A stretch of DNA of 45,955 nucleotides from Gilvimarinus sp. 2_MG-2023 (GTDB lineage Bacteria > Pseudomonadota > Gammaproteobacteria > Pseudomonadales > Cellvibrionaceae), in contig NZ_JAUOQM010000021.1 in NCBI RefSeq assembly GCF_030547685.1, positions 35,445 through 81,399 on the forward strand, given 5' to 3'. Positions 1,045-25,839 of the stretch are shown here, piece by piece; position 1 is the first letter of the stretch, and each line of letters opens with the position of its first letter. The notes beneath the pieces were generated by a model that saw nothing but the letters and a program-made list of their open reading frames with translations, had not been told where the DNA came from and ran no database searches. Both the position numbers and the translations under genes were made by a program.

Positions 1045-1809
1045 GTGGATTTAGCAACACTAATTGGGCTGTTGGGGGCCCTCGCCCTGATCGTCACCGC
1101 GATGTTTATGTCGGGCGAAGTCGGTATGTTCGTCAATGCCCCGTCTCTGGTGATTGTGGTCGGGGGGAGTATCTTTGCGGTGATGGCCAAGTATGGTTTG
1201 GGCCAGTTTTTAAGTGCGTTTAAAGTCGCCGGAAAAAGCTTTAGCAATAAGCTGGACGATCCGTTGGATATGATCGATGAAATCGTCGATCTGGCCGATG
1301 CGGCACGTAAAGGTGGCTTGTTATCGCTGGAAGGCAAAGAGGTGACCAACGGCTTTCTGCAAAAGGGCATTCAATTGCTGGTGGATGGTCACGACCCCGA
1401 TGTGGTGCGTACGATGCTATCTAAAGATCGTTCGCTCGCGGAAAAACGCCACACCTTGGGCTCTTCAATTTTCGCCTCCATGGGGGACGTGGCGCCGGCC
1501 ATGGGGATGATCGGGACGCTGATCGGTCTGGTGGCTATGCTGGCGAATATGGATGACCCGAAGGCGATTGGCCCGGCCATGGCAGTGGCTTTGCTGACCA
1601 CTCTTTACGGTGCCGTCATTGCCAATGCCATTGCCCTGCCCATAGCCGATAAGTTAAAGCTGCGCGCGACGGAAGAGTATTTGATTAAAAGTATGATCAT
1701 CGACGGTTTGCTGGCTATTCAAAATGGCCAGAACCCACGGGTGATCGACACTATTTTGCGCACCTATTTGCCGGAGCGTAAACGCGAAGTCGCCGATGCG
1801 GCGGAGTAG
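1045..1809 (+). CDS. pomA: Flagellar motor stator protein PomA (MotA family)
   Basis: Inner-membrane ion-channel subunit of the flagellar stator. The 254 residues match the Vibrio-type sodium motor protein PomA rather than E. coli MotA (about 295 aa): the N-terminus MDLATLIGLLGALALI and the VIVVGGSIFAVMAKYGLGQF stretch are typical, followed by a cytoplasmic segment carrying charged residues for the rotor contact and the ASMGDVAPAMGMIGTLIGLV transmembrane stretch. The start is a GTG at 1045 preceded by AAGGAG at 1033-1038. pomB follows 14 bp downstream. Na+ specificity is inferred from resemblance to PomA and not from a single decisive residue. Confidence 0.93.
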   Translation: MDLATLIGLLGALALIVTAMFMSGEVGMFVNAPSLVIVVGGSIFAVMAKYGLGQFLSAFKVAGKSFSNKLDDPLDMIDEIVDLADAARKGGLLSLEGKEVTNGFLQKGIQLLVDGHDPDVVRTMLSKDRSLAEKRHTLGSSIFASMGDVAPAMGMIGTLIGLVAMLANMDDPKAIGPAMAVALLTTLYGAVIANAIALPIADKLKLRATEEYLIKSMIIDGLLAIQNGQNPRVIDTILRTYLPERKREVADAAE

Positions 1810-1823
1810 CGGGAGTAGCGACA

Positions 1824-2804
1824 ATGGATGAAGAAGAGAACGAATGCGAATGTCCCCCCGGCCTCCCGGCTTGGTTGGCGACCTTTGGCGACCTAATGTC
1901 GCTGCTGATGTGCTTTTTCGTACTGCTGCTTTCATTTTCCGAGATGGACGCGATGAAATTTCGCCGCCTGGCGGGCTCTCTTGCCCAGGCGTTTGGGGTC
2001 CAAGCTCAGATTAACGTCAACGAAATACCCAAAGGCACCAGCATCATTGCCCAGGAGTTTAGTCCGGGCAAGCCCGACCCGACCCCGATCACCGAGATTT
2101 ATCAGCGCACCCAAGACATTACCAAAATGAGTCTGGAGGTGCGCGACGCCGAAGAGTACGACATTGAGCGCGGTGAGCCCAATGTCGATGACAGCGCCAA
2201 AGACCGGCTGCAAAAAATCATCGAGGGCCTGGTAGAGCAAACCCGCCAAGACGCTGCCGAGCTGGCCAGTAAGCTGGAAGAGCAAATCGCTAACGGTGAA
2301 CTTGAGATCGAAACCGAAGGCCGACAAATTATTATTCGCATCCGTGAGAAAGGTTCATTTGAGTCGGGCTCGGCACGCCTAGCGCCTGATTATTACGACG
2401 TTATCGACGAAATTCGCGCTGTATTGATGCTGAAGCCTGGGCGCATTCAAGTCCAGGGGCACACGGATAGCGTGCCCATTAGCTCGTCGCAATTTCGCTC
2501 TAATTGGGATTTATCCGCTATGCGGGCCGCCTCGGTGGCATCGCAGTTAATGCGCGGTGGTTATTTACAACCTGGGCGCTTTGAGGTGTCCGGATTTGCC
2601 GACGTTAGACCGCTGGCGGCTAACGACAGCGCCGCAAGCCGAGCTCGCAATCGCCGGGTGGAAATTGTGATTCGGCAAGGTCTGCAGGCGGAGCTGGCGC
2701 CGCAAGATATGGAGCTGCTGCAAGAGGAAGGGGATGACATTATCCGAAATCTGGATATAGAACCCCAGTACTTATTCGACCTGGATCCGGAGGAGGTATT
2801 CTAA
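1824..2804 (+). CDS. pomB: Flagellar motor stator protein PomB (MotB family)
   Basis: Partner of PomA; anchors the stator to peptidoglycan. It has 326 residues: a short acidic, Cys-containing N-terminus (CECPPGLPAW), a single membrane helix from about 17 to 38 with the essential ion-binding Asp23 (FGDLMSLLMCFFVLLLSFSE), a periplasmic plug/linker, and an OmpA-like peptidoglycan-binding domain at roughly 190-300 (QGHTDSVPI, SASRARNRRVEI). The segment PKGTSIIAQEF is characteristic of Vibrio-type PomB. It is in an operon with pomA. No terminator follows at once; the next one is at 2979, inside a putative small RNA gene. Confidence 0.93.
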   Translation: MDEEENECECPPGLPAWLATFGDLMSLLMCFFVLLLSFSEMDAMKFRRLAGSLAQAFGVQAQINVNEIPKGTSIIAQEFSPGKPDPTPITEIYQRTQDITKMSLEVRDAEEYDIERGEPNVDDSAKDRLQKIIEGLVEQTRQDAAELASKLEEQIANGELEIETEGRQIIIRIREKGSFESGSARLAPDYYDVIDEIRAVLMLKPGRIQVQGHTDSVPISSSQFRSNWDLSAMRAASVASQLMRGGYLQPGRFEVSGFADVRPLAANDSAASRARNRRVEIVIRQGLQAELAPQDMELLQEEGDDIIRNLDIEPQYLFDLDPEEVF

Positions 2805-2820
2805 AGTGTGCCGAGGATTT

Positions 2821-2838
2821 TGTGAGACATATCCTACA
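2821..2838 (+). promoter_or_regulatory. Putative GacA (UvrY/VarA) upstream activating sequence
   Basis: An 18-bp imperfect palindrome, TGTGAG-ACATAT-CCTACA. The known GacA box upstream of rsmX/Y/Z genes in Pseudomonas is TGTAAG-N6-CTTACA; 10 of the 12 specified bases match with the exact 6-bp spacer. It lies about 45 bp before the probable -10 (CATAAT, 2883-2888) of the RNA described in the next entry, which is the layout seen for rsmY/rsmZ promoters. Function is inferred. Confidence 0.55.
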
Positions 2839-2894
2839 AATGCTAGTGACAATGGCGCCTTTTTTTATTCCCTCGACCTTGCCATAATTTAACC

Positions 2895-3012
2895 AAGGAC
2901 TAAGACATATGGACGTGAGGCAAGGAGTAGACGGATCTCGCCATCAATGAGCCCAAGGCTGGACTCCATCCTGCAGAACCCTACAACAGGCCCCCTTGTT
3001 GTAGGGTTTTTC
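2895..3012 (+). ncRNA. Probable RsmY/CsrB-type small RNA that sequesters RsmA/CsrA
   Basis: Between pomB and the MFS gene is a stretch of about 118 nt with no credible protein gene, a CATAAT -10 box (2883-2888), a GacA-type palindrome upstream and a strong terminator at the end. Four perfect ANGGA motifs occur within 41 nt (AAGGA 2895-2899, ATGGA 2909-2913, AAGGA 2922-2926, ACGGA 2931-2935), plus another GGA at 2961-2963. A stem GUGAGG/UCUCGC (2915-2920 with 2936-2941) would place two of the ANGGA motifs in its loop, the preferred presentation for CsrA/RsmA. AGCC-CAA-GGCU (2950-2960) forms a second small hairpin. The length is close to Pseudomonas RsmY (about 120 nt). The 5' end is estimated; the -35 is poor, as expected for an activator-dependent promoter. 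Confidence 0.6.
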
Positions 3013-3016
3013 TTTT
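2979..3016 (+). terminator. Rho-independent terminator of the RsmY-like RNA
   Basis: Perfect 10-bp stem CCCTACAACA (2979-2988) with TGTTGTAGGG (2997-3006), an 8-nt loop, then TTTTTCTTTT. It closes the putative small RNA and would also stop pomAB transcription. Confidence 0.9.
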
Positions 3017-3136
3017 CTGGGGCCGATAAGTGCCGGTTTATCTTGTCGTTTGCTAAGGTGGTATGGAGCCGTAGAGGTAGATTTCCCCGCAACCCGCCCA
3101 GAGTATGGTTAAATAGAACGACTAAAAAATCACAAT

Positions 3137-3176
3137 AAAAAGCCGGTGTTATGCATAGCGCAGCGCCGGCTTTTTT
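3137..3176 (+). terminator. Second, bidirectional-looking terminator
   Basis: AAAAAGCCGG (3137-3146) pairs with CCGGCTTTTT (3166-3175), enclosing a 19-nt loop that itself contains the palindrome TATGCATA. It has a T run on one side and an A run on the other, so it could work on either strand. Together with the terminator at 2979 it isolates the MFS gene from upstream transcription. The bases between the two terminators (3017-3136) show nothing recognisable. Confidence 0.75.
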
Positions 3177-3212
3177 GTGGTTGTCCGTTTTATAACTGCA
3201 CGATGGGGTTTT

Positions 3213-4616
3213 GTGAGACAAACATCCAATCCAGATGAGTCGACTTCGCGCTGGTCAGTGCTGATTATGGTCTGTTTGGGTGCTTTTATTGCCCCGCTGG
3301 GCATGGCCTCTGTCAATGTGGCGATACCAGCCTTGGCCGAAGAGCTGTCGGCCAATGGTATTTTGGTCAGCTGGATTCCCACCGCCGTCTTGGTGGCCAA
3401 TATCGTCTGCATGCTACCCGCTGGTAAGCTGGCCGACATTTGGGGCAGAAAGCGTGTTTTTCAGTTGGGCATAGTAATTAATGCTCTCGCCGGCATCAGC
3501 GCTTTTTTTGCTACTGATATGTTGTGGTTGCTCGCCATGAGATTTATGCAGGGCACCGGCTCGGCGATGATCTTCGCGACCAGTATGGCCATGCTAATCT
3601 CAGTTTTTCCGTCTCACCGTCGAGGTTTGCCTCTGGGGTTAAACGCCGCCTGTATCTACTTAGGTTTAACGCTGGCGCCCGCTTTAGGGGGGTGGGTTAC
3701 CCAGTTTTGGGGGTGGCGCTATGTGTTCTTAATGCCTTTGCCGCTGGTTGCGGTGGTACTGGCACTGTCGTATTGGCGCGTAACTGATGAATGGCGCGAG
3801 GCCAGTGGAGGGCGTTTCGATTGGCCGGGCGCTTTACTGTTGGCGGCGTGGGCGGTGACATTAGTATTAGGCTTTACTCATCTGCCGAGCTGGCAAGGCA
3901 TAGCGACCTTGTTGGCATCGGTGCTGTTTTTTACTGGATTTGTGGTATTACAAGTGCGCTCTAAAGCGCCGCTGATTCGTGTGCAAATGTTCACAGAGTC
4001 CAAGTTCTTTTCCCTGTCATTAGTGGCAGCGGTGTTGATGTACGCCTCCAGTTACCCATTGGGTTTTTTGCTCAGCCTGTATTTACAATATGTACTTGGG
4101 TTGAGTGCGGCCAATGCCGGGCAGGTTATGCTCTCGCAGGCTTTAGCTATGGCCTGCGTGGCACCATTTGCGGGTAAATTGGCCGATTTTATCTCGGCGC
4201 GAATATTAACCTCAGTGGGTTGCGTGATGACATTGCTAGGCTTGTACCTGCTGCATCGACTACAGCTCGGAAGTACGGCTATCTATATCAGCGTGGCACT
4301 GGCGTTAGTCGGGGTCGGGTTTGGTTTTTTCTCCAGTCCCAATAATCACGCGGCGATGCAGGCGGTGAGTGCCTCCGAGGCAGGCGTCGCCTCGGCGACG
4401 TTAAATTTGGCACGGGTTAGCGGCAATTTGGTCGGGATGAGCTTGGTTAACTTAATCGTTTATTCGTATATTGGCGAGCGAACCTTGAGTAAAGCACTCG
4501 CGCAGCCGATATTGTCGACTTTTTTGCAGGCTCTGGAGTTATCCATGACGTTTGTCGGTTTGGCGCTGTTGGTCTCAATTATGCGGGGGCGACTGTCGGA
4601 GGAAAACTCGGGGTAG
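3213..4616 (+). CDS. MFS drug-efflux type transporter (DHA2/EmrB-QacA-like)
   Basis: Proton-coupled inner-membrane exporter of 467 residues. It has many hydrophobic segments, consistent with the 12-14-helix DHA2 group, and the MFS loop 2-3 signature GKLADIWGRKRVF. WIPTAVLVANIVCMLPAGKL is the usual second-helix context of EmrB/QacA-like proteins. The reading frame is open from a GTG at 3177, but that codon sits at the foot of a terminator; the GTG at 3213 is preferred because it leaves a short N-terminus before the first helix. It stands alone: no periplasmic adaptor (EmrA) or regulator is adjacent, so the substrate is unknown. Confidence 0.85.
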   Translation: MRQTSNPDESTSRWSVLIMVCLGAFIAPLGMASVNVAIPALAEELSANGILVSWIPTAVLVANIVCMLPAGKLADIWGRKRVFQLGIVINALAGISAFFATDMLWLLAMRFMQGTGSAMIFATSMAMLISVFPSHRRGLPLGLNAACIYLGLTLAPALGGWVTQFWGWRYVFLMPLPLVAVVLALSYWRVTDEWREASGGRFDWPGALLLAAWAVTLVLGFTHLPSWQGIATLLASVLFFTGFVVLQVRSKAPLIRVQMFTESKFFSLSLVAAVLMYASSYPLGFLLSLYLQYVLGLSAANAGQVMLSQALAMACVAPFAGKLADFISARILTSVGCVMTLLGLYLLHRLQLGSTAIYISVALALVGVGFGFFSSPNNHAAMQAVSASEAGVASATLNLARVSGNLVGMSLVNLIVYSYIGERTLSKALAQPILSTFLQALELSMTFVGLALLVSIMRGRLSEENSG

Positions 4617-5425: not shown

Positions 5426-5493
5426 ATGGCGAGTTTGTCAGGTCTTTTGCCAATCCTGCATCACATCCGTGGTGAAAACGACAGGAGGTGCCC

Positions 5494-6054
5494 ATGGACG
5501 AGAGGATATTGCGGCTTAATATTGCCGGGCAGCCGATAGAATGGCTGCATTGGCAGGACGCGGTTTGCCTCTATGCTCGTGACTTGGTGGCTTGGAGTTT
5601 AGGCGGCCCGGTTCGCAACGTGGTGGGCGGTTACGCCCGCTGTAGTCATCTTCGTTCACAAATTACCTTGCCAGCCATTATTGCCTGCGGCGGAAGTCGC
5701 ATTGCTCGTTATCGGCACATTCCCCCCTTAACCAACCGCGCACTGTTCGCCCGCGATGACCACTTGTGTTTATACTGTGGTAAGACCTTTACCACAGGTT
5801 TGCTGTCGCGCGATCATGTCCACCCTCTCAGTCGTGGTGGTAAAGATATTTGGCAAAATGTGGTTTCGGCCTGCAAACGTTGCAATCAACGTAAGAGCAA
5901 TCATTTGTTGCAGGATATTGATATGCAGCTATTAGCCTTGCCATTTCGCCCTAATATTGCTGAGTATCTAGCTTTGACCAACTCAGAGCGGATTCGCGGT
6001 GATCAGATGGAATTTCTTCGTCCGCAGTTTTCAGAAAATCGCCAGTGGCATTGA
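5494..6054 (+). CDS. HNH endonuclease family protein
   Basis: Putative zinc-supported HNH nuclease of 186 residues. The N-terminal half (LNIAGQPIEWLHWQDAV, DLVAWSLGG) is the conserved non-catalytic part of a stand-alone proteobacterial HNH group; the C-terminal half holds the HNH fold with CLYCG, the catalytic DHVHPLSRGG and ACKRCNQRKSN, so two Cys pairs and the His/Asn residues are intact. A GTG at 5488 is in frame, but it overlaps the ribosome-binding site AGGAGG (5483-5488), so the ATG at 5494 is chosen. No restriction or phage genes are nearby. Substrate and biological role are unknown. Confidence 0.85.
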   Translation: MDERILRLNIAGQPIEWLHWQDAVCLYARDLVAWSLGGPVRNVVGGYARCSHLRSQITLPAIIACGGSRIARYRHIPPLTNRALFARDDHLCLYCGKTFTTGLLSRDHVHPLSRGGKDIWQNVVSACKRCNQRKSNHLLQDIDMQLLALPFRPNIAEYLALTNSERIRGDQMEFLRPQFSENRQWH

Positions 6055-18843: not shown

Positions 18844-18920
<77 letters not shown>

Positions 18921-25447: not shown

Positions 25448-25569
25448 CCGAATTTGCCGCCAACGGCGGTAAACCCACCTGCGCAAGCGGGTGTACGCAG
25501 TCTGGCCTACCTGTAAATATGCACGGGTACGGCTGTAAATGTATGGCATATTGTAATGAGGAAATGATC

Positions 25570-25839
25570 ATGGCACTAAGTGCACAAGAGAAAGCTGAAA
25601 TTGTAAAAGAGTATCAACAAGCAGAAGGTGACACTGGTTCACCGGAAGTGCAAGTAGCCCTGTTGACCCACAACATCAACAAGCTGCAAAACCACTTTTC
25701 CGGCCACAAGCAGGATCACCACTCCCGTCGCGGTTTGATCCGCATGGTAAACCAGCGTCGTAAGCTGCTGGACTACCTGAAAGGGAAAGATACCAGCCGT
25801 TACGCGTCTTTGATTCAAAAACTGGGTCTACGCCGCTAG
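25570..25839 (+). CDS. rpsO: 30S ribosomal protein S15
   Basis: 89 residues, exactly the usual length, from the ATG at 25570 with GAGGA upstream; the in-frame ATG at 25519 would add an implausible Cys-rich extension. Seen: [38 protein letters not shown] and [20 protein letters not shown]. It is followed by a terminator and then pnp, the standard order. Confidence 0.98.

Follow-up and report, generated by a model that had tools for sequence, protein, structure and literature searches.

The Rsm RNAs of Pseudomonas carry GGA motifs in loops and end in a terminator, CsrB is much longer than the RNA of about 120 nt described here, and Pseudoalteromonas fuliginea belongs to another lineage than Gilvimarinus. 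A paper in NAR from 2006 is said to have predicted CsrA-sRNAs, and an earlier prediction in related species is possible. For RsmX-2 a length of 110 nt with six GGA motifs is given in PMC7911923. The UvrY site of E. coli csrB is published as TGTGAGAGATCTCTTACA (PMC4682653). Csr sRNAs Pf1-Pf3 have recently been described from P. fuliginea, a non-model marine bacterium (PMC9927453 and PMC11882849).

Here we describe a locus from a member of the genus Gilvimarinus, which belongs to the Cellvibrionaceae. The window, i.e. the whole stretch of 45,955 nucleotides that was analysed, corresponds to G000:C32:35445-81399, and positions 2821-3016 very probably hold the gene of a Gac/Rsm-type sponge RNA. 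This reading as an RNA of the RsmY/RsmZ type, first proposed in a preliminary description of the sequence, is supported by relatives, covarying stems, a CsrA gene and a second box in the genome. Transcription of the window RNA, its control by GacA, its binding to CsrA and any effect on motility are what we infer from these features.

With RsmX/RsmX-2, RsmY and RsmZ of Pseudomonas the predicted RNA has in common a GacA-type palindrome, a short length and several GGA motifs; unlike these, it is predicted to have a large loop, closed by GGC/GCC, in which two GGA motifs lie together, and it carries a conserved AUCCUG element. GGA motifs are also common to CsrB and CsrC of E. coli and Salmonella and CsrB1/B2 of Shewanella, and the second predicted RNA of the same genome (301 nt, 16 GGA) resembles the longer CsrB type. 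The box of the window shares 15 of 18 bases with the UvrY site of E. coli csrB and lies centred at about -65 from the inferred start, as compared to about -183 in csrB (PMC4682653); it also resembles the Shewanella box TGTAAGN6CTTACA (PMC3171408). The window RNA sits behind pomAB(-pilZ), whereas rsmZ of P. brassicacearum needs an enhancer in the rpoS coding region (PMC7911923). Pf1-Pf3 are likened to it by description alone, as Csr sRNAs of a marine bacterium (PMC9927453, PMC11882849).

The covariance search with the Rsm and Csr models that had been suggested as a check turned out negative: with models run without a positive control, no Rsm/Csr family of Rfam was found in the window at the gathering score, nor in 2750-3250 at E values up to 10. 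Ten related loci and 20 order-level loci likewise gave 0 matches to Rfam at gathering. Because no Rfam Rsm/Csr family matches, the window RNA is filed as a new putative member of the Gac/Rsm functional class, one whose synteny is unusual, and not as RsmX, RsmY, RsmZ or CsrB. Among the matches listed from the open-licence literature, titles and abstracts mention neither an Rsm RNA beside pomAB nor the window RNA, and no Csr/Rsm RNA of Cellvibrionaceae is named.

Anatomy of the predicted RNA gene

The features of the locus are summarized in Table 1. The product of pomB contains the Pfam domains MotB_plug and OmpA, and the GacA box starts 16 nt past the pomB stop. The 18-bp box, the CATAAT about 45 bp behind it, the four ANGGA motifs, the strong terminator and the length of about 118 nt had all been named in the preliminary description and were found again, the length now being estimated at about 118-122 nt from a start inferred near 2895. 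The four ANGGA motifs start at 2895, 2909, 2922 and 2931, within a span of 41 nt. ORFs of 63 and 110 aa overlap the gap that holds the predicted RNA. Elsewhere in the window, an S15 ribosomal leader of Rfam was noted at 25503-25626 and a tRNA at 18844-18917.

Table 1. Features of the pomAB region and the predicted RNA gene (positions in the window)
Feature	Position	Strand	Evidence
pomA, flagellar stator	1045-1809	+	NCBIfam NF006527 PomA, 415 bits (cut-off 341)
pomB, MotB-family stator gene	1824-2804	+	NF006508 MotB family, 404 bits (above cut-off)
Predicted GacA/UvrY-type upstream activating palindrome TGTGAGACATATCCTACA (TGTGAG-N6-CCTACA), 18 bp	2821-2838	+	aligned in 19 promoters, own included
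Conserved linker between palindrome and -10, consensus GACATTnGCCACTATT region	2846-2866	+	19-promoter alignment
Predicted -10 box CATAAT	2883-2888	+	44 bp past palindrome; 19-promoter alignment
Predicted small RNA, about 118-122 nt	2895-3016	+	start inferred from -10, end from terminator; covariance model matches
ANGGA motif 1 (AAGGA), RNA 5' end	2895-2899	+	
Predicted hairpin H1, CAU/GUG stem, AUGGAC loop with ANGGA motif 2 (2909-2913)	2906-2917	+	covariation
Predicted hairpin H2, GGC (2919-2921)/GCC (2940-2942) stem, 18-nt loop with ANGGA motifs 3 (2922-2926) and 4 (2931-2935)	2919-2942	+	comparative structure
Predicted hairpin H3, GAG.CC/GG.CUC	2949-2966	+	comparative alignments
AUCCUGY element, near-invariant, complementary to GGA motifs	2968-2974	+	alignments
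Predicted intrinsic terminator, stem-loop 2975-3010 (16 pairs), U-rich tail	2975-3016	+	

In the window, TGTRAG-N6-CYTACA is matched exactly at this box and nowhere else; allowing one mismatch gives two matches against 0.51 expected, which is weak evidence if taken alone. Dinucleotide shuffling of the whole window, with both strands counted, gave an ANGGA cluster of equal density in 5 of 200 trials; shuffling of the gap gave one in 1 of 2000. The strict palindrome TGTNNGANATNTCNNACA, which was derived from relatives, was absent from all 200 shuffled windows and has two sites in the 3.76-Mb genome, as compared to none for the reversed control pattern; both sites precede GGA-rich predicted RNA genes. 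A chance origin is unlikely for the ANGGA cluster and for the strict palindrome. The looser pattern TGTRAG-N6-CYTACA has three exact sites in the genome; at the third (C5:286940), no GGA-rich stretch follows by eye. Allowing one mismatch yields 29 matches in the genome versus 15 for the control.

The second strict box, at G000:C5:478801, is followed by 301 nt that contain 16 GGA and 9 ANGGA motifs. This second predicted Gac-box RNA gene (L210:4072-4372; G000:C5:478871-479171) lies downstream of a ppnN-type gene and, by eye, ends in a terminator. Its region has partial matches at E <= 0.001 in six of the seven other Gilvimarinus genomes, G007 being the miss.

Distribution and structure in relatives

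DNA of the gap has matches in all seven other Gilvimarinus genomes compared (E <= 3.3e-11), mostly across the RNA part; near full length of the query is reached in G005 alone among these relatives. For the promoter comparison, the best 30 pomB loci were taken from 58 genomes searched. A box scoring at least 14/16 within 1500 bp downstream, followed by the RNA, is present in 19 of the 30, and no box of that score was found over the same distance in the other 11. The 19 aligned promoters, including that of the window, were chosen for having the box, so that its presence in all of them is by choice; where it is present, the box, the linker, the -10 and the spacing of the GGA motifs align, as the preliminary description would have it for related genomes. 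Columns G28, C36 and T40 of the linker and A66 and T68 of the -10 are invariant in these promoters, and A64 and A67 are nearly so. The selection of rows by the box and the control for the looser pattern weaken the conservation argument a little.

In the family Cellvibrionaceae, covariance model R2, whose 14 training rows come from the same 144 genomes that were searched, matches 131 genomes at E <= 0.01 and 109 at E <= 1e-6, with no match in 13. At E <= 0.01 these include 119 of 128 good-quality genomes and 28 of 32 genera. Since R2 also matches the second Gac RNA of the genome (E 2.6e-5), its weak matches may be other Gac-box RNAs. At the level of the order, 37 of 244 genomes match, 10 inside the family and 27 outside. 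Fourteen loci outside the family were inspected by eye; a scan near the centre of each locus found a strict box in eight and none in six, and at least three of these six have a near-box. GGA-containing stretches follow the box in the box-bearing loci. Because the bodies of these stretches differ, the RNAs are treated as the same kind as, and not the same family as, the Gilvimarinus RNA.

Longer forms of the RNA, by about 70 nt, were noted in two Gilvimarinus rows (L061:2545-2733 of G002 and L062:2548-2735 of G006), with 8 and 7 ANGGA motifs as compared to 3-4 in the other Gilvimarinus rows. Tandem second copies were also noted: L213 and L214 have two model matches each, and L067 and L073 carry such a copy as GGA-rich sequence further downstream.

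MAFFT alignments of distant members were set aside, as the H2 stem was misaligned in them; for this reason covariance model R1 was built from six Gilvimarinus rows and used to realign 14 of the 19 sequences (alignment A6), leaving out the long forms L061 and L062 as well as L067, L075 and L078 (weak score or divergent). A further alignment, A9, was made from 44 loci, which gave 46 matches at E <= 1e-6 and 44 distinct rows. Both are fitted to the model structure and are therefore biased in its favour. With this bias, 90.4% of the cells are paired in A6 and two-sided changes occur in 7 of 11 pairs; the covariation score is 0.397, versus 0.077 or less for slid controls. The corresponding figures for A9 are 89.5%, 11 of 11 pairs (98 two-sided cells) and 0.487 versus 0.003-0.069. 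The 44 distinct rows have a median of five ANGGA motifs per RNA body, about 0.34 being expected at equal base frequencies.

H1 is paired in 92.5% (A6) and 84.5% (A9) of cells. H2, a stem of only three pairs, is paired in 100% of cells of both alignments; it is invariant in A6 and has two-sided replacements in 2-3 rows per pair in A9. Support is poor for one H3 pair (columns 220-283), in which 19 of 38 cells of A9 are unpaired; the H3 loop carries an ANGGA motif in many other genera and none in Gilvimarinus. The claim that two ANGGA motifs share one hairpin loop is borne out by the comparative structure of H2 and not by the energy fold of the single sequence, which did not recover the consensus stems of the window RNA; 188 of 200 shuffles of the RNA body fold at least as well as the real one. 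RNAalifold on A6 prefers to pair the first of the two GGA motifs in H2 with the AUCCUG element. Such a pairing is possible, and the covariation data neither support nor exclude it, as the columns concerned hardly vary. The AUCCUGY element might cover a CsrA site or serve to close the RNA.

The pomAB neighbourhood and alternative readings

A physical link of the RNA to the stator genes had been proposed in the preliminary description. The adjacency is real and conserved: with PomB presence defined as E <= 1e-50 (67 of 144 family genomes), at least 41 of the 67 have the RNA on the pomB strand and downstream of that gene, at least 39 of them within 750 bp. In at least 13 it is directly behind pomB (6-84 bp), in at least 26 at 558-743 bp and in at least two further away; the count is a lower bound resting on 62 listed matches of PomB-bearing genomes. 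Among the matches listed (to about E 1e-4), 26 of the 67 have no RNA match behind pomB. The gene between pomB and the RNA encodes a PilZ protein in the one locus checked (L065). Among the best 80, named, of 559 confirmed PomB-relative loci, the RNA follows pomB on its strand in six, namely two Gilvimarinus, Marinimicrobium agarilyticum and three MAGs; the other 74 have no forward RNA match at E up to 1.

The functional side of the link fared differently. Family genomes without PomB have a model match in 75 of 77 cases (70 at E <= 1e-6), which means that pomAB is not needed for the RNA and that a functional link to motility is no more than a possibility. In G071 the RNA adjoins a polyprenyl synthetase gene and xseB, which in the window flanks pomA on the side away from the RNA; an HNH gene follows the RNA in G010, G066 and G011, and the window has an HNH gene further on (5488-6054). 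The shared xseB and HNH neighbours suggest that the place of the RNA may be old and that pomAB may have been lost from it in these genomes. In another family, a box-bearing model match (L238, G047:C334:8946-9102, minus strand) was observed about 750 bp downstream of a PomB match on the same strand, and the pomAB neighbourhood may accordingly reach beyond the Cellvibrionaceae.

That the RNA is mainly the 3' UTR of the pomAB mRNA, a GGA-rich terminator acting in cis on the stability of the stator mRNA, fits several observations. In 28 of the 30 best-scoring R2 loci the upstream ORF, pomB or PilZ by length and place, ends 2-170 nt ahead of the box, and no terminator between the two was found by a simple search in any of these 28 assessable loci (G071 and G086 were not assessable); a terminator 3' of the box is present in 29 of the 30, with none found in G157. 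The strand of pomB is moreover shared in all of the at least 41 neighbouring cases. Yet between pomB and the RNA stand a conserved GacA palindrome, linker and -10, nearly all PomB-less family genomes have the match, as given above, and the same design recurs at the second locus of the genome, so that a role as 3' UTR in the main is very unlikely. Chance, i.e. a GGA-rich spacer with a fortuitous palindrome, can draw on the shortness of each element and on the missing Rfam match; it is extremely improbable, given that the features are conserved jointly in 8 of 8 Gilvimarinus genomes and across most of the family, and that the stems covary.

It is equally improbable that the RNA serves the downstream MFS transporter gene (3177/3211-4616) as its leader or attenuator. 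The strand is shared, and the RNA terminator as well as a terminator-like hairpin at about 3139-3174 precede the MFS gene, but other genera keep the RNA with a different next gene, HNH in L206, L208 and L209 and an acyltransferase in L207, and the second hairpin has, by eye, a promoter-like site of its own ahead of it. In this region of the window, 3090-3176, it was noted by eye that TATGGTTAAATAG resembles a promoter and that a strong terminator-like hairpin comes after it, immediately ahead of the MFS gene; the arrangement is similar in G005, G003, G004 and G007 and could be an attenuator or a tiny RNA.

As no terminator was found between stator operon and RNA in the 28 assessable loci, stator transcripts may run into the RNA. 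A tentative extension, which we consider rather unlikely, is that the RNA is at once a built-in 3' end of the stator operon, beside its existence as a Gac-driven short RNA. If true, read-through from pomAB(-pilZ) would give a stator mRNA with a CsrA sponge of its own; stator expression would feed the CsrA pool and couple motor synthesis to the motile/sessile switch in cis, and where the PilZ gene intervenes, the operon of a likely c-di-GMP-binding protein would also feed this pool.

Predicted mode of action and meaning

The genome encodes one CsrA of 61 aa (NF002469, 118 bits versus a cut-off of 73). The GacA candidate is a 216-aa response regulator encoded beside uvrC, with UvrY/SirA/GacA as best family and 250.6 bits, below the curated NCBIfam cut-off of 280; the GacS candidate is a 924-aa hybrid kinase with BarA as best family and 743.5 bits, below the curated cut-off of 890.

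With these partners, a BarA/GacS-type kinase would phosphorylate GacA, which would bind the palindrome 2821-2838, centred near -65. Transcription would begin near 2895 and stop at the terminator 2975-3010, and the RNA of about 120 nt would present four ANGGA motifs, one at the 5' end, one in the H1 loop and two in the H2 loop. These sites would bind CsrA (RsmA) and hold it off its mRNA targets, and part of this task would fall to the second, longer Gac-box RNA of about 300 nt elsewhere in the genome.

Should the prediction hold, this would be a Csr/Rsm RNA for the large family Cellvibrionaceae, in which Rfam 15 recognised the RNA in 0 of 31 sequences scanned. The alignment yields a covariance model with which the RNA could be annotated in most Cellvibrionaceae genomes. 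Since the order pomA-pomB-(pilZ)-RNA is conserved, it can be tested whether motor genes and the CsrA switch are directly linked.
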